A stretch of DNA of 64,000 nt from Polaribacter sp. HaHaR_3_91 (GTDB lineage: Bacteria; Bacteroidota; Bacteroidia; Flavobacteriales; Flavobacteriaceae), in NCBI RefSeq assembly GCF_019278525.1, contig NZ_CP058986.1, forward strand, positions 2,736,001 through 2,800,000. The letters run 5' to 3'. This document shows, piece by piece, positions 41,398 through 48,779 of the stretch. Each line of letters begins with the position of its first letter. Position 1 is the stretch's first letter. The notes under the pieces were generated by a model that was given only the letters and a program-made list of their open reading frames with translations, made no database searches and was not told the origin of the DNA. A program made the position numbers and the translations under genes.

Positions 41398-41778
41398 TTT
41401 GAGAATAAACTTACCGGAACTTCATATAATATTACAGAAGGTAAAGCTACATTAACTTTAAATAAAGAGGTACATCCTGATAGATTTGTACTTGCTTTTA
41501 CACCTAATAGTAGTTTAGATGTAGAAGACGAATTATTAGCTGCAAAGACTAGTATTTATGCTGATAATAAAAACAAATTGTAATTTCTAAAAACAATGAA
41601 GTAGAAATTTCTAAAGTAGAATTGTTTGATATCCTTGGTAAAAAAGTAAGTATATCGAATATTAAAGAACAAAAAGATACGTACCAATTAAAAATTAAAA
41701 CGCAAATACCAACAGGTATATACATTGTAAAAATGAAAACCAATAAAGGTGAAACTAATAAAAAGTGGTTATAGAGTA
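41398..41778 (+). pseudogene. decayed C-terminus of a T9SS surface protein
   Basis: Translation gives ENKLTGTSYNITEGKATL, then HPDRFVLAFTP and SIYADNKNK, matching KDKLTGKTQ ... YTDRFVLAFAP ... IYADNKNK at the end of the 4090-residue protein. Near 41578 about four bases (CAAA relative to the paralogue) are missing, shifting the frame; the sorting-domain text then continues in another frame (VELFDILGKKVSI, IPTGIYIVKM). A further one-base loss near 41764 breaks the terminal NKKVVIE. No 5' part or start codon remains. It is followed by a terminator of the same family as the one after the 45173-47917 gene, so the whole 3' end of a lost paralogue is recognisable. Confidence 0.85.
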
Positions 41779-41806: not shown

Positions 41807-41844
41807 AAAGCTGAATAACAAAATCGTTATTCAGCTTTTTTTTT
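41807..41844 (+). terminator. Rho-independent terminator, duplicated type
   Basis: AAAGCTGAATAAC/GTTATTCAGCTTT stem, 6-base loop and T run. It is nearly the same as the terminator at 47945-47981. Confidence 0.85.
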
Positions 41845-42122: not shown

Positions 42123-45100
42123 ATGATTAACCCCCTAAAAAAAAGAAAATTATTTCAAAAATTAATTTCTTTTAAATTAAAATCTTCTTTATTATTATTT
42201 TTAGTAGTTGCATTATCTTCAATTTCCAATACAAATGCACAATGTGATGCTTATGATTACACTTTAAATAGTAACCAAAGTAATGGTTATACCTTTTCGT
42301 CTGGTGTTACCCGTGTTATAGGTAATATTAGCGTTAGTAACGGAAGTGGTGCAAAATTTAACGATGGCGCAGTAATTTGTATTTCTGATGGTAGCACATT
42401 AAAAGTAGCCAATGCAACCTCAACAGGAAATGTTTCTTTTATAATACAAAACGGTGAATTAATTTTCGATCAAAATCCACAGTTGAGTGCTAATATTACA
42501 ATAGAAATAGGTAGTAAAGGAAAACTTACTGCTTTAAATACTATTAGTTTTAATGGTGCTAAAAATAAAATTTACAATGAAGGTACAATAAACATCAGTA
42601 AATCATTGCAGTTTGGAGGCGCTACTGAAAATGAATTTGATAACCTTGGTAAAGTAATTATTGGTACAGAAATGAATGCATCTTCTGTAGGTCTTAGTCA
42701 AATTAGAAATCAAAATGAAATGATTATTACAAATAACTCTCAAATTGGTGCTAATATTACTTTTGTTAACTGTGGTGTACTTACATCAAAACAAGCATTT
42801 AATAATAATGGACTTGTTGTTAATACTGGTACTTTTAACATTACAGGTGGTGCTTTATCTTTAGGTGTATCATCTGCTATTTTTAGAAATTACGGAAAAT
42901 TATATGTAAATGGAGATATCAATTTAACTGGAGAACTTTATAATGAAGGCTACGCAGAGGTTAATCAAAAAATACAAGGAGGTGGAGACGTTACTGGTCC
43001 ATTAACATCAGAGTCTAAAACGGGTTATATAAAAATTGGTAGCCAATCCCCTATTTCAGGTAATGTTGGTCCTAATTTAGATTTCTCATATTCTTTTAGT
43101 GGTACTCCAATACAAAACGGAACTATAGATAATACAGTAACATATAACTGTACGGGTACAGATTGTAAAAACCCAAAAGATACAGAAGAAACTTGTGCTA
43201 ATTTAGACGGAACAATACCTTGTTCTTTAACAGAACCAGACACTATAATTGGTACTTGCACTAATGAAAACGATTTACAATTTACATTAAATTTAAAAGG
43301 AAGTAACATAGGTGCTTCTTATGTAATATCAGGTACAACTGCTACTACAGGTATTTATAATACCGATACAGTTTTTATAATAACAAACGGTGCAGATGGT
43401 TTAGACAAAACAGTAACTGTTACAGATATAAATGATGCTAATTGTAATTTAACAATTACAATTTCTGGAACCTCGTCTTGTATAGATACAGATAAAGATG
43501 GTGTTATAGACAGTATTGATTTAGATGATGATAATGATGGTATTTTAGATACTGATGAAGGTTGTGGAAACTTAGTTATAAACGGAAGTTTCGAACTTCA
43601 AGATTTTTCTAGTGTTACAGAATTCCCTAATGGTTACACAGATGCATCTGGTACATTTATAGGAACTACATTTAATACAAATACACTAAAAGGATGGAAT
43701 TACACTCAAAACCTAGATGGTTGGGTTGGTGGTCAATCTCCAAGTTGGTCTACTAATATCTTTGCAGATGCATATGACGGAAAACAATACTTAGATGTTC
43801 TTGGTAACAACGATAAAAGTGCAGGAGGAGTTAGTAACATACTTTCACAAACTATTACTACAATTCCCGGTACAACGTATACCCTTAGTTTTTATTGGGG
43901 AGAAGATATTGGCCATTCTATAGGACAGGAAGTTACTTTAGATTTAAACATTAAAAACACCTCTAACGTAAGTATTTTCAACAAAACACTAAGTAGTATT
44001 GCAGAAGGAAATGTAAACGGAATTATTGGTCCTAAAAAATGGTATCGCTATAGCACTGCTTTTGTTGCTAATGACACAGAAACAACAATAGAATTTCAGG
44101 CAACACCTCCTACAGGTGGATCTATAGGTATAGGAGCTGCTTTAGATCTTGTAACTATTTTCGCTAATAACTGTGCAGATACAGACAATGATGGTATTCC
44201 TAATTCTTTAGATTTAGATTCAGATAACGACGGTATATCAGATTTAGTAGAAGCTGGAGGAGTAGATACTGACGGAAATGGTAAAATAGATGATATAAAT
44301 ACTGACGGTACCTTAGTAAATGACTCAGATGGTAACGGTTTAGATGATCATTATGATGTAAATAATGGAGGAATCGCTATTGCAAACCTAGATACAGATG
44401 GAGATGGAATACCAAATACTCAAGATTTAGATTCTGACAACGATGGTATTCCAGATGTTATAGAAGCCGGAGGTAAAGATGCAAACGGTGATGGTTTAGC
44501 TGATGACTTTGTAGACACTGACAACGATGGTTTTAATGATACTGTTGATGGAGATATTGGGCAAGATGGTGTTTCAGAAAACAAAGACAATGTTTTAATA
44601 TTAACAGGAGAAGATACTGATGGAAACGGAACCCCGAACTCATACCCTAAAGGTGATGCAGATAATGATGGTATTTTAAATCATTTGGATATTGATGCAG
44701 ATAATGATGGTATACCAGATAATATAGAAGCACAAACTACTGCAGATTATATTGCACCAAGCGGAGTTGGTAGCCAAATAACAGACATCAATAAAAACGG
44801 TGTAGATGACACTTATGAAAACGTTACTACAATTGGTCTTACACCAACAAACACAGATGGTATAGACACTCCAGATTACTTAGATACAGACACAGATAAT
44901 GATGGTATTCCAGATATTTTTGAAAATGGAGATACAGACAATATCCTAAGCGGAAATGATGTAGACCAAGATGGTTTAGATGACAACTTCGATGACAATG
45001 ATGATTCTAGTATTACTGGAGCTACAGTAAATGATGGTTTAAACCCAGATAACACTGTAATAAACCTAATAACATTAGAAAATTCTTTTGGTGATGAAGA

Positions 45101-45176
45101 CAATGACTTCTCCCTACTAATCCAACTACTGGTGATCTTGATTATAGAGATGCACCAGAAGCTGCAGATGTTATGA
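42123..45176 (+). CDS. giant T9SS surface protein, 5' part (frameshifted before the C-terminus)
   Basis: 1017 residues as read. Signal peptide about 1-39 (LLLFLVVALSSISNTNAQ). Residues 40-300 look like a parallel beta-helix (repeating short NG/IxNEG units). A TSP3-like repeat (DTDKDGVIDSIDLDDDNDGI) is near 459. A galactose-binding-like domain starts at VINGSFELQDF (485-680). Asp-rich TSP3-like calcium repeats fill 680-980. After codon 996 the sequence turns into an unrelated hydrophobic tail and stops. Shifting frame at 45111-45115 instead gives PTNPTTGDLDYRDAPEAADV, running directly into the next frame. The part has a signal peptide but no sorting domain, so this is the front of one 42123-47917 gene of about 1930 residues. 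Confidence 0.85.
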   Translation: MINPLKKRKLFQKLISFKLKSSLLLFLVVALSSISNTNAQCDAYDYTLNSNQSNGYTFSSGVTRVIGNISVSNGSGAKFNDGAVICISDGSTLKVANATSTGNVSFIIQNGELIFDQNPQLSANITIEIGSKGKLTALNTISFNGAKNKIYNEGTINISKSLQFGGATENEFDNLGKVIIGTEMNASSVGLSQIRNQNEMIITNNSQIGANITFVNCGVLTSKQAFNNNGLVVNTGTFNITGGALSLGVSSAIFRNYGKLYVNGDINLTGELYNEGYAEVNQKIQGGGDVTGPLTSESKTGYIKIGSQSPISGNVGPNLDFSYSFSGTPIQNGTIDNTVTYNCTGTDCKNPKDTEETCANLDGTIPCSLTEPDTIIGTCTNENDLQFTLNLKGSNIGASYVISGTTATTGIYNTDTVFIITNGADGLDKTVTVTDINDANCNLTITISGTSSCIDTDKDGVIDSIDLDDDNDGILDTDEGCGNLVINGSFELQDFSSVTEFPNGYTDASGTFIGTTFNTNTLKGWNYTQNLDGWVGGQSPSWSTNIFADAYDGKQYLDVLGNNDKSAGGVSNILSQTITTIPGTTYTLSFYWGEDIGHSIGQEVTLDLNIKNTSNVSIFNKTLSSIAEGNVNGIIGPKKWYRYSTAFVANDTETTIEFQATPPTGGSIGIGAALDLVTIFANNCADTDNDGIPNSLDLDSDNDGISDLVEAGGVDTDGNGKIDDINTDGTLVNDSDGNGLDDHYDVNNGGIAIANLDTDGDGIPNTQDLDSDNDGIPDVIEAGGKDANGDGLADDFVDTDNDGFNDTVDGDIGQDGVSENKDNVLILTGEDTDGNGTPNSYPKGDADNDGILNHLDIDADNDGIPDNIEAQTTADYIAPSGVGSQITDINKNGVDDTYENVTTIGLTPTNTDGIDTPDYLDTDTDNDGIPDIFENGDTDNILSGNDVDQDGLDDNFDDNDDSSITGATVNDGLNPDNTVINLITLENSFGDEDNDFSLLIQLLVILIIEMHQKLQML

Positions 45177-47917
45177 TAACACAAGTATATCAATTTGGCA
45201 TAGAAAAATGGATTGAAATTACAAATATAGGAACTACAGATATCCCTGCTAATACTATTAAAATTCAATTATATAAGGATACTACAGGCGATCAAACAGG
45301 TGTTACACCAGATGTCTCTGATATTGTAGACTCAGTTTTAAAAGTAGGCGAATCTGTATTGTTTAAAAACTCAGTAAATACAGTTTCTCATGTAAATGCA
45401 ACAGCTACAATAATTACAAATAATGAGTTAACAGATTTAGATGACACAACTAATGATATCATTACACTTTCAGCTGCTTCAGGAACTTATTCATGGGCAA
45501 ACAGATACGATGTTGTTTCAAATATTACCAACAAAACTTCATTTGTAAGAATAGATGAAACGACTAGTACTAATAAAGATTATGACGCTACTGAATGGGT
45601 AGTATTTATAGATGATGCAATAGCTACTTATGATGTAGTAAATAGTGCTATATCTACAGATATTATCCAAAGAAGACATCCGCAAGATTTATTAATATCA
45701 GAAATACTAAGTTCTAATACCGATGCAAACACATTACTTGGTTTACATAGAATTAAAGAAACTACTAGAAATTTAGACGGAACTTGGGATAATGGTTTTC
45801 CTGACAGATCTCGTTATGTTATAATAGATGAAGATTACAACCATACAACAGATAGATTAAGTGCTAGAAAACTAAAAATAGACACTTCTAAAGAATTATT
45901 AGTAACAAATAATCTATTAGTAGTTACTAATGATATCGAATTAAATGGAAACATACGTTTATCTGGTACTTCTCAATTAGTACAAACACATACAAGTTTA
46001 AGTACAGTATCTGGTTCTGGTTTACTTTTTGTTGATCAAAAATCTGAAGTACCTAGTAAGTATCGTTATAACTATATGAGTTCTCCAGTAACTACTTTAG
46101 GAGAAAACACCTATACTTTAGAAACTGTTCTTAGAAACGGAACAATAACTAATACTCCAAAAGAAATTACTTATGTTTCTGGCTATGATGGTGCTGTTAA
46201 TGGTACTGATATTTCTTTAGCAGATTATTGGGTATACACATATGCTGCAGGCAGCAACGGTAGATCTAATTGGGAGCATAAATATAAAGACGGAGCTATA
46301 AATAAAGGAGATGGTTACATATTTAAAGGACCCGGACAAGAACAAAACTACACATTTGTAGGTACACCAAATGATGGTGAGTTTAATACTATTAATGAAA
46401 TAAACCCTGGACAATCTTACTTAATTGGTAATCCTTTTCCATCTGCAATGAATGCTAGAAAATTTATAGAAGATAACGAAGATTCTATAACAGGTGCCTT
46501 ATACTTTTGGCAACATGTAGGAGAAGATGAGGATGAAGGAACTGCAGGGCATAATTTTGCAGGTTATATTGGTGGTTACGCTACTCAAAATAAAACAATG
46601 GGTACTGCAGCAAACGCTACTAGCCAAAATGAACCCGTAAATTATACTTTAGAAGCAGAAGATGCTCTTGAAGGAGATGGATTTGAAATATCAATACCAA
46701 TGATAGGTTTCTCTGTAGTTTCTTTAAATAATGAAGACCATATTACGTTTCCTAATATTTCTAGAGGTGTAGATTCATTAAGAATAACCTACGCATCTTT
46801 TTATGATAAAACATTAAAAATTAAAATTAACAATGTAGACAGAGGAGAAATTACATTCCCTAACACTGGTCTATTATATAAAGAGCTTAAAATTGCTTTA
46901 TGCATGGAAGCTGGTAGTAATGTTACATTGACTTCTAGTACTGATGGCCATAGTATTTTTGTTGACAAAATAGTTTTTAAAGATGAAGACGGACAAATAT
47001 CTTGTGCTCCGAGTACAGGTGGCGAAGAATACGCAGATAAATACAAGACTCCAGAACCGTATATTGCTGTTGGACAAGGTTTTTTCATTGAAGGTAATAC
47101 AACAAACGGAAAAATTGTTTTTAACAATAGCCAAAGAGAATACATAACAAAAGAATCTGGAGAATCTGTATTCTTTAAAAGTGAAAAGAAAACAACAGAA
47201 AAGTCATCAAACTTAGGCTTACCAATCTTAAAGTTGGGTATGAATTATTCTAATACATTAGGAAACAATTTACATCGCCAAATAGGTATTTCTTTTAACC
47301 AAACAAACTCGTTTGAGCATGAAAAAGGATATGATTCTGAAATGTATGATATTAACCCAACGGACTTCTATTGGAAATTTCCTAACAACACTAGTAGCTA
47401 CGTTATTGCAGGTGTACAACAAATTTCAAATGAATTAGAAGTTCCTTTAGAAGTTGTTGTGAACCAAAATAGTGTAATTACTATAAATATCGATGAAATA
47501 AAAAACATCAATCAAGATATATATATAAAAGACAAATTAACAGGTAAAACACAAAAAATAAATGACGCTAGTGCTACATATCAGTTAAAAAAAGGTACTT
47601 ACACAGATAGATTTGTTTTAGCATTTACCACTGTACAAGATGCTGTACTTAGTATTGAAAACGAGCTATTGTCTACCTATACAAATGTATATGCCGACAA
47701 TAAAAATAACCAAATTGTAATTTTTAAGAACAATGATGTAGAAATTAATAACATAGCGTTATTTAATATTCTTGGTAAAAAAGTAATTCTTTGGGATATT
47801 AAAGAACAAAAAAGTGACTACCAACTAGACATCTACAAACAATTACCAACAGGTGTTTATATTGTAAAAATGGACACTAATAAGGGGATTACAAGTAAAA
47901 AAGTAGTTGTAGAATAA
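45173..47917 (+). CDS. giant T9SS surface protein, 3' part (same gene as 42123-45176)
   Basis: 914 residues from an ATG that overlaps the upstream stop by four bases. It has no signal peptide and begins in the middle of the lamin-tail-like block (MITQVYQFGIEKWIEITN), at the point equivalent to residue 3167 of the 4090-residue protein. It then follows that protein nearly module for module: RSRYVIIDEDYNHTT, YRYNYMSSPV, NYTFVGTPNDGEF, IGNPFPSAMNARKFI, nested CBM6/35-like domain (about residues 490-620), GQGFFIEGN, HRQIGISF, and a type A sorting domain ending GKKVILW ... VYIVKM ... KVVVE. On its own it would lack export. The open frame upstream of the ATG reaches back to the frameshift at about 45113. 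Confidence 0.85.
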   Translation: MITQVYQFGIEKWIEITNIGTTDIPANTIKIQLYKDTTGDQTGVTPDVSDIVDSVLKVGESVLFKNSVNTVSHVNATATIITNNELTDLDDTTNDIITLSAASGTYSWANRYDVVSNITNKTSFVRIDETTSTNKDYDATEWVVFIDDAIATYDVVNSAISTDIIQRRHPQDLLISEILSSNTDANTLLGLHRIKETTRNLDGTWDNGFPDRSRYVIIDEDYNHTTDRLSARKLKIDTSKELLVTNNLLVVTNDIELNGNIRLSGTSQLVQTHTSLSTVSGSGLLFVDQKSEVPSKYRYNYMSSPVTTLGENTYTLETVLRNGTITNTPKEITYVSGYDGAVNGTDISLADYWVYTYAAGSNGRSNWEHKYKDGAINKGDGYIFKGPGQEQNYTFVGTPNDGEFNTINEINPGQSYLIGNPFPSAMNARKFIEDNEDSITGALYFWQHVGEDEDEGTAGHNFAGYIGGYATQNKTMGTAANATSQNEPVNYTLEAEDALEGDGFEISIPMIGFSVVSLNNEDHITFPNISRGVDSLRITYASFYDKTLKIKINNVDRGEITFPNTGLLYKELKIALCMEAGSNVTLTSSTDGHSIFVDKIVFKDEDGQISCAPSTGGEEYADKYKTPEPYIAVGQGFFIEGNTTNGKIVFNNSQREYITKESGESVFFKSEKKTTEKSSNLGLPILKLGMNYSNTLGNNLHRQIGISFNQTNSFEHEKGYDSEMYDINPTDFYWKFPNNTSSYVIAGVQQISNELEVPLEVVVNQNSVITINIDEIKNINQDIYIKDKLTGKTQKINDASATYQLKKGTYTDRFVLAFTTVQDAVLSIENELLSTYTNVYADNKNNQIVIFKNNDVEINNIALFNILGKKVILWDIKEQKSDYQLDIYKQLPTGVYIVKMDTNKGITSKKVVVE

Positions 47918-47944: not shown

Positions 47945-47981
47945 AAAGCTGAATAATGATAACATTATTCAGCTTTTTTTT
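47945..47981 (+). terminator. Rho-independent terminator of the third giant gene
   Basis: AAAGCTGAATAAT/ATTATTCAGCTTT stem with 6-base loop and eight T residues. Sister of the copy at 41807-41844. Confidence 0.85.
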
Positions 47982-48220: not shown

Positions 48221-48779
48221 ATGAATAAAGATAAAAACCTATTAGAATTAATTTTTCAAGTACCTGATTTTTTTAAAACTGAATACTTCACAAACAAAAA
48301 AGAAATTTTGTTTTTAACCTTAACCCTATCATTGTTGTTCATTCCACAAACTTATGCGAACATAACACCTATAAAAACAGCCTCTTTACTGTGTGAAGAA
48401 AGCGTTCCTATTTTAAATACAATAGAAAATTCGTTAAAAAAGATTACAGGACTAATAAATTAAAAACAACAAGCACTCCAGAATTATTACCAATTATTAA
48501 ATTAGGATTTGAGTATAAAAATACTGATGATTTATTATTACATAGTCAAATAGCAGTTTCTTTTCAAAATCAAAACGTAATTATTTCTAAAAAACCAGAA
48601 GTAACTTTATATAAAGTAGAATTATATAATACCCTTGGTAAAAAAACCAATTTTTGGGGAAATTAAAGAACTCAAAAAACTCTTACCAATTAGCAATTAA
48701 TAATCAAATACCAACGGATATTTACATCGTAAGGTTAAATACAGATAAAGGCATCATAGATAAGAAAGTTCTATTTTGA
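48221..48779 (+). pseudogene. collapsed T9SS protein gene: signal segment fused to a broken sorting domain
   Basis: An 80-residue frame (48221-48463) starts MNKDKNLLELIFQ and has a signal-like segment (LFLTLTLSLLFIPQTYA). After a frameshift at its end the sequence continues as TPELLPIIKLGFEYKN and LLLHSQIAVSFQNQN, matching the LPILKLGMNYSN ... LHRQIGISFNQTN block of the giants. It then jumps over about 160 residues to VIISKKPEVTLYKVELYNTLGKK, the sorting domain. Two more frameshifts follow before IPTDIYIVRLNTDKG and IIDKKVLF. A giant gene has thus shrunk to under 0.6 kb by internal deletion and small indels. The first 80 codons may still be translated. Confidence 0.75.

Follow-up and report, generated by a model that had tools for sequence, protein, structure and literature searches.

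The stretch of DNA analysed here, referred to below as the window, comprises 64,000 nucleotides of the Polaribacter sp. HaHaR_3_91 genome (G000), which is assembled as one contig of 4,208,346 bases. Its + strand carries two open reading frames (ORFs), one of 1017 aa (42123-45176) and one of 914 aa (45173-47917), which are in different frames and overlap by the four bases ATGA. Residues 1-997 of the first ORF are genuine, and its last ~20 residues are read out of frame. The reading frame changes at 45111-45115 on the same strand, around a CCC run at 45112-45114. The last stop of the second frame ahead of the second ORF is at 45104, and the frame contains no ATG, GTG or TTG between this stop and 45173, so that there is no start for the second protein upstream of 45173. 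The open, start-less extension at 45107-45172 (+ strand) is the sole zone where a change of frame yields the full protein; the second-frame translation ahead of the second ORF reads PTNPTTGDLDYRDAPEAADV and runs directly into MITQVYQFG. The second ORF corresponds to a C-terminal module shared across a gene family. It is followed by a hairpin resembling an intrinsic terminator (47945-47976, + strand), one of three terminator-like sites that the scan found on the + strand (41807, 46542 and 47945) where chance alone would give 2.3; none of them is close to the point at which the two halves meet. A promoter scan returned 39 sites, compared to 38.7 expected by chance.

All protein features of the two ORFs are on the + strand. 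The first ORF begins with a signal peptide (MINPLKKRKLF...NAQ; 42123-42242), judged by eye. Further along, it contains a weak DUF642-like stretch at residues 519-661 (43677-44105; E 0.0021 and 18.3 bits, below the Pfam cut-off of 27) and Met-free, Asp-rich repeats resembling thrombospondin type 3 repeats at residues 685-996 (44175-45110; TSP3_bac E 0.0011, below the cut-off). The second half opens with a lamin-tail-like match (E 0.013, below the cut-off), continues with a stretch matching the sequence of RemZ at residues 204-471 (45782-46585), and ends with a RemA/RemZ-homologous stretch at residues 623-912 (47039-47908; RemZ E 1.3e-23) and a type IX secretion system (T9SS) type A sorting domain at residues 845-913 (47705-47911), which scores above the cut-offs of both TIGR04183 (33.5 bits, cut-off 23) and PF18962 (28.9 bits, cut-off 27). 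As the earlier note had stated, the sorting domain is on the second ORF only, which has no signal peptide, and the signal-like N-terminus is on the first. As sequenced, the two are not on one polypeptide.

Between the two homologous stretches, the structure predicted for the second half (mean pLDDT 83.8, pTM 0.74) contains strands at residues 489-604. Of the Foldseek structure matches we used only those to CBM6 carbohydrate-binding domains (TMt about 0.7), the best being the CBM6 of Zobellia LamC (5fui, TMt 0.76 over 126 columns) and 1o8s (0.74); the others were many long alignments of low TM, including Eph receptors, and some single-domain matches to CBM35/36 or Cry. Foldseek printed no positions. 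The CBM6-like domain was placed at about residues 487-615 (46631-47017) because the lengths fit and because paralogues whose match is limited to residues 1 to ~486 and ~614 to 914 have no counterpart to it. The second half is thus predicted to contain a CBM6-like fold with a putative sugar-binding function. Taken as a whole, the gene product is, by its sequence features, a predicted T9SS type A surface protein of ~1931 residues with a RemA/RemZ-like C-terminal region.

With only residues 1-996 of the first frame as the query, a database search retrieved a 1931-aa protein, P0001, encoded in a single open frame by a Polaribacter metagenome-assembled genome, a different strain from that of the window. 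Residues 1-997 of P0001 match the first ORF (981 of 997 identical, 98.4%), including the same N-terminus, and residues 998-1931 match the second reading frame (920 of 934, 98.5%), both without gaps. Since no gap intervenes where the match moves from residue 997 (first frame) to residue 998 (second frame), the frame must change inside 45111-45115. P0001 carries the signal-like start and the sorting domain on one chain; its 90% identity cluster has 11 members, possibly with fragments among them. A syntenic ortholog in another genome (G048) is likewise a single frame, of 1838 aa, which matches both halves and is located between the ortholog of a 2048-aa giant and an rsmB-type methyltransferase gene. 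The nearest paralogue in the window genome (L002), a 2844-aa open frame, crosses the junction in one frame, reading PNNPTSGNLDYRDIPEAADV followed by MITQVYQFG, and the 60 codons upstream of the Met of MITQ are open in 22 out of 22 other family members that were read.

On this sequence comparison, it is virtually certain that the two ORFs derive from one ancestral gene. The earlier note had proposed that they are halves of one protein, that a single base was lost at the CCC run within 45111-45115, and that restoring it would give about 1930 residues; the intact 98%-identical allele, the syntenic ortholog and the in-frame fusion of the module in the other members read support its central claim, that of one protein whose halves are separated by a single-base change of frame at the CCC run. 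The same note took a 4090-aa paralogue as the model for the architecture. This stands for the C-terminal module of ~914 aa, which the two have in common at 64-67% identity, but not for the upstream region, which in the paralogue is of Ig/cadherin type rather than of TSP3 type with an LDYRD tail. As the 4090-aa neighbour matches in the C-terminal module only, the gene is properly compared with L002, P0001 and its ortholog in G048. Relative to the intact orthologs (G048 and P0001), the frame in the window is disrupted, as in a pseudogene or null allele.

The alternative that the ORFs are two real, separate genes was rejected in view of the synteny with G048 and the intact P0001 allele. Among the relatives, we saw no conserved gene pair with its boundary at the MITQ Met. 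With the second half as the query (candidates of 503-1600 aa), nothing closer than 64% and no separate near-identical copy was found, although near-identical fragments of the second half could be hidden inside the P0001 cluster.

In the window genome the second half gives 25 matches; its own gene aside, 11 of the genes matched have open frames of 1270-4445 aa. Across the genus, with scoring limited to 9 candidates in each genome, module residues 1-476 were found in at least 50 of 166 genomes at E <= 1e-40. Among 240 database proteins fetched within length and E-value filters, 147 match the second half, 127 of them with its start aligned. In the latter group at least 150 residues precede the module in 112 proteins, 1-149 residues in 10 and none in 5. 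These five, P0123 (from P. staleyi), P0140, P0143, P0144 and P0158, start exactly at the Met of MITQ. In the genuine first half, Met is confined to residues 1, 184 and 200, and hence a gene caller tends to fall on the MITQ Met when the frame or the contig is broken upstream. We infer that false calling of the gene start explains the five proteins, and gene callers may create such a false start across the family. Three other proteins (P0231, P0233 and P0235) are minimal members of 713-715 aa in which the module immediately follows a signal-like sequence; the module may therefore also exist as a stand-alone secreted protein.

The earlier note listed phase variation through a short tract among the explanations of the break. 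Slippage in the C tract would then toggle the surface protein within a population, with the off-state captured in the window genome and the on-state in its close relative P0001. Surface proteins are common targets of phase variation. However, the tract consists of three bases only, and no hypermutable repeat tract was found at the break. The region 42123-47917 contains 14 CCC and 13 GGG runs as well as longer ones (C5 at 42131 and one A8), among which the CCC at the break is not distinctive. The sequences of the paralogues have no conserved tract at the junction, and the breaks in relatives are located elsewhere. We consider phase variation at this site very improbable. Slippage would be likelier in the C5 run and an A run that closely follow the initiation codon of the first ORF (42131-42145) than in the CCC, and at those runs the frame is unbroken.

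Programmed -1 ribosomal frameshifting or transcript slippage, by which the cell would join both frames deliberately, has an even smaller, practically negligible probability. The ORFs do overlap, the shift needed is -1, and slippery heptamers of the X XXY YYZ type are present at 45038 and 45041. Both, however, precede the stop of the target frame at 45104, so that a shift at either would lead to termination, and no such heptamer was found in the usable 66-nt zone at 45107-45172. Moreover, the intact allele P0001 and the relatives encode the protein in one frame, and the split is not conserved. A programmed frameshift was rejected on these grounds.

A more serious alternative is an error of sequencing or assembly, whereby a base of the CCC run escaped detection and the chromosome itself contains an intact gene of ~1931 aa. 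The existence of the intact 98%-identical allele would be expected in this case, as would the state of the two halves, neither of which has decayed further. Together they offer 747 possible single-base changes to a stop codon, none of which has occurred. Assuming equal rates, the absence of a further stop places the break at less than about 1.2% of neutral divergence, at which 3 stops would be expected. The dN/dS of the second half, compared to an orphan copy in G045, is 0.146, a value typical of a selected gene (0.185 and 0.199 for the neighbouring nucleases), and the substitution pattern shows that the second half was evidently under purifying selection over its divergence from G045.

In order to estimate the error rate of the window assembly, we compared G045 ORFs of at least 120 aa (taken from all six frames and thus including some non-genes, with a 3.9-kb overlap between two of the G045 pieces) with 664 kb of the window genome. 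None of the 252 comparable ORFs (>=70%; 87,908 aa) was split, which by the rule of three bounds the split rate only at roughly one per 88 kb for the 264 kb compared. In the reverse direction, 4 of 259 comparable ORFs (89,719 aa) were split in G045. The split gene itself is outside the reach of this genome pair, as the G045 copy is a 5'-truncated orphan frame of 834 aa. In a comparison with G081 the regions were non-syntenic, and only 5 and 4 ORFs were comparable, none of them split. The gene for PurL, an anabolic control matched in 162 of the 166 genomes, is intact in the window genome; among the matches listed it has internal stops in G099, G134 and G145, ends early in G074, and gives further partial matches, several of them at contig ends. 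The other giant frames of the family in the window genome likewise have no stop inside the matched module, and stops occur in 4 of the 25 matches, which are short 3' remnants. A C run of three bases is not a typical error-prone homopolymer.

The lack of further decay and the dN/dS value agree with an error as well as with a real mutation of very recent date, and the absence of split ORFs among the 252 compared favours the mutation. The independent breakage of related giants in G001, G005 and G045 and the lack of a terminator-like site near the junction also speak for it. An error of sequencing or assembly is thus unlikely, if still a reading to be reckoned with. The best reading, which we hold to be probably correct, is a recent and real inactivating frameshift in a gene family evolving by birth and death. 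Of the options in the earlier note, both early pseudogene formation and a sequencing error therefore stay in contention, with the evidence leaning towards the former in the form of a real recent mutation.

If the frameshift is real, a net change of a single base at the CCC run would break the frame of the ~1931-residue gene. The first product would probably be exported to the periplasm and, having no sorting domain, would not use the T9SS. The second, if made at all, would presumably arise by reinitiation at the ATGA overlap and, having no signal peptide, would stay in the cytoplasm. The surface protein would hence be lost. As the family undergoes birth and death, such losses are to be expected, and the case looks like an ordinary recent gene loss in a fast-changing gene family. 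In practical terms, two ORFs that an annotation would list as two proteins belong to a single broken gene of the T9SS adhesin-like type, and neither merits a function of its own. Being intact in one strain and split in another, the gene can serve as a clear marker for tracking how giant surface proteins are gained and lost in Polaribacter, a genus important in the degradation of algal blooms.

Breakage is not confined to this gene. Among the matches listed, 15 have an open frame shorter than 1300 aa or an internal stop, of which 11 were read (the other four being two in G152, one in G113 and one in G040); the survey covers breaks inside the searched module region. Six of the 11 are disrupted, namely one each in the window genome, G001 and G005 and three in G045, and their lesions differ. 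Those in G045 are a 5' truncation, a TGA inside the module and a change of frame near module residue 301. The remaining five (in G103, G083, G165, G166 and G125) are intact short members with signal-like starts, as judged by eye. As the lesions are at different places, they point away from a programmed or tract-driven site and towards a general turnover of genes that are long and dispensable. Great length also makes a gene a large mutational target, and we claim no excess of breakage over the background. G045, with three disrupted members in addition to its split ORFs in the control, is a genome or assembly rich in decay or errors. In G001, the frameshifted member L086 is about 98% identical to its sister L087 over about 4 kb, and the frameshift is at the edge of a tract that is identical in the two, as if made by recombination.

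The giants of the window are located between recG and an rsmB/F-type gene (18679-50411). This hotspot contains three giants in the window, two in G048 and one in G106; in G045 it contains a truncated orphan and a 1551-aa member. In G081, at least two giants are found beside an rsmB-type gene, on a stretch without the recG side. The interval that separates the 4090-aa gene from the split gene contains a decayed C-terminal stub (41401-41765), which occupies two frames and is 50-77% identical to the end of the 4090-aa gene. The hairpin that follows this stub (41807-41838) is nearly identical to the one that follows the split gene. Its pattern with exact arms occurs at only 3 sites in the genome, each just 3' of the 3' end of a family member or of a stub. 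More C-terminal stubs or fragments are present directly downstream of giants, at 48400-48773 in the window and at C1:867492-868229 and 878803-878931 in the same genome. The recurrent hairpins and stubs suggest old 3' ends left behind by recombination. We tentatively propose, as a conjecture that is rather doubtful at present, that repeated and independent breakage, truncation and replacement of RemA/RemZ-like giants, notably at the recG-rsmB hotspot, varies the surface sugar-binding repertoire of Polaribacter. If this were true, natural populations would be segregating for null and intact alleles, and the 3' ends of old members would persist as stubs reusable by recombination. The turnover of the family is a more interesting lead than the split gene itself.

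In a literature search of titles and abstract openings we recognised no publication on this Polaribacter gene family or on frameshifts in it, which does not prove that there is none. The closest known counterparts come from Flavobacterium johnsoniae. The second half is homologous to RemZ (Fjoh_0803), which like RemA belongs to the T9SS type A surface proteins, in two stretches (residues 204-471 and 623-912) that extend the homology beyond the sorting domain. It is also homologous to RemA over residues 378-480 and 613-901 (E 1.8e-20), which includes most of the sorting domain. RemA is termed a lectin in a title in the reference list of PMC10994853. By likeness to RemA and RemZ, a role in gliding or as a lectin is putative for the Polaribacter protein. 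Within the genus, P0001 is the same protein as that of the window and differs from it by its single open frame. The giants of G001 (2738 + 1205 aa) and G005 (1602 + 807 aa) are likewise long T9SS members halved by a change of frame, although their breaks are at other places than that in the window. Unlike RemA and RemZ, the Polaribacter protein is longer, contains the CBM6-like insert and the TSP3-like repeats, and is split in the window genome.
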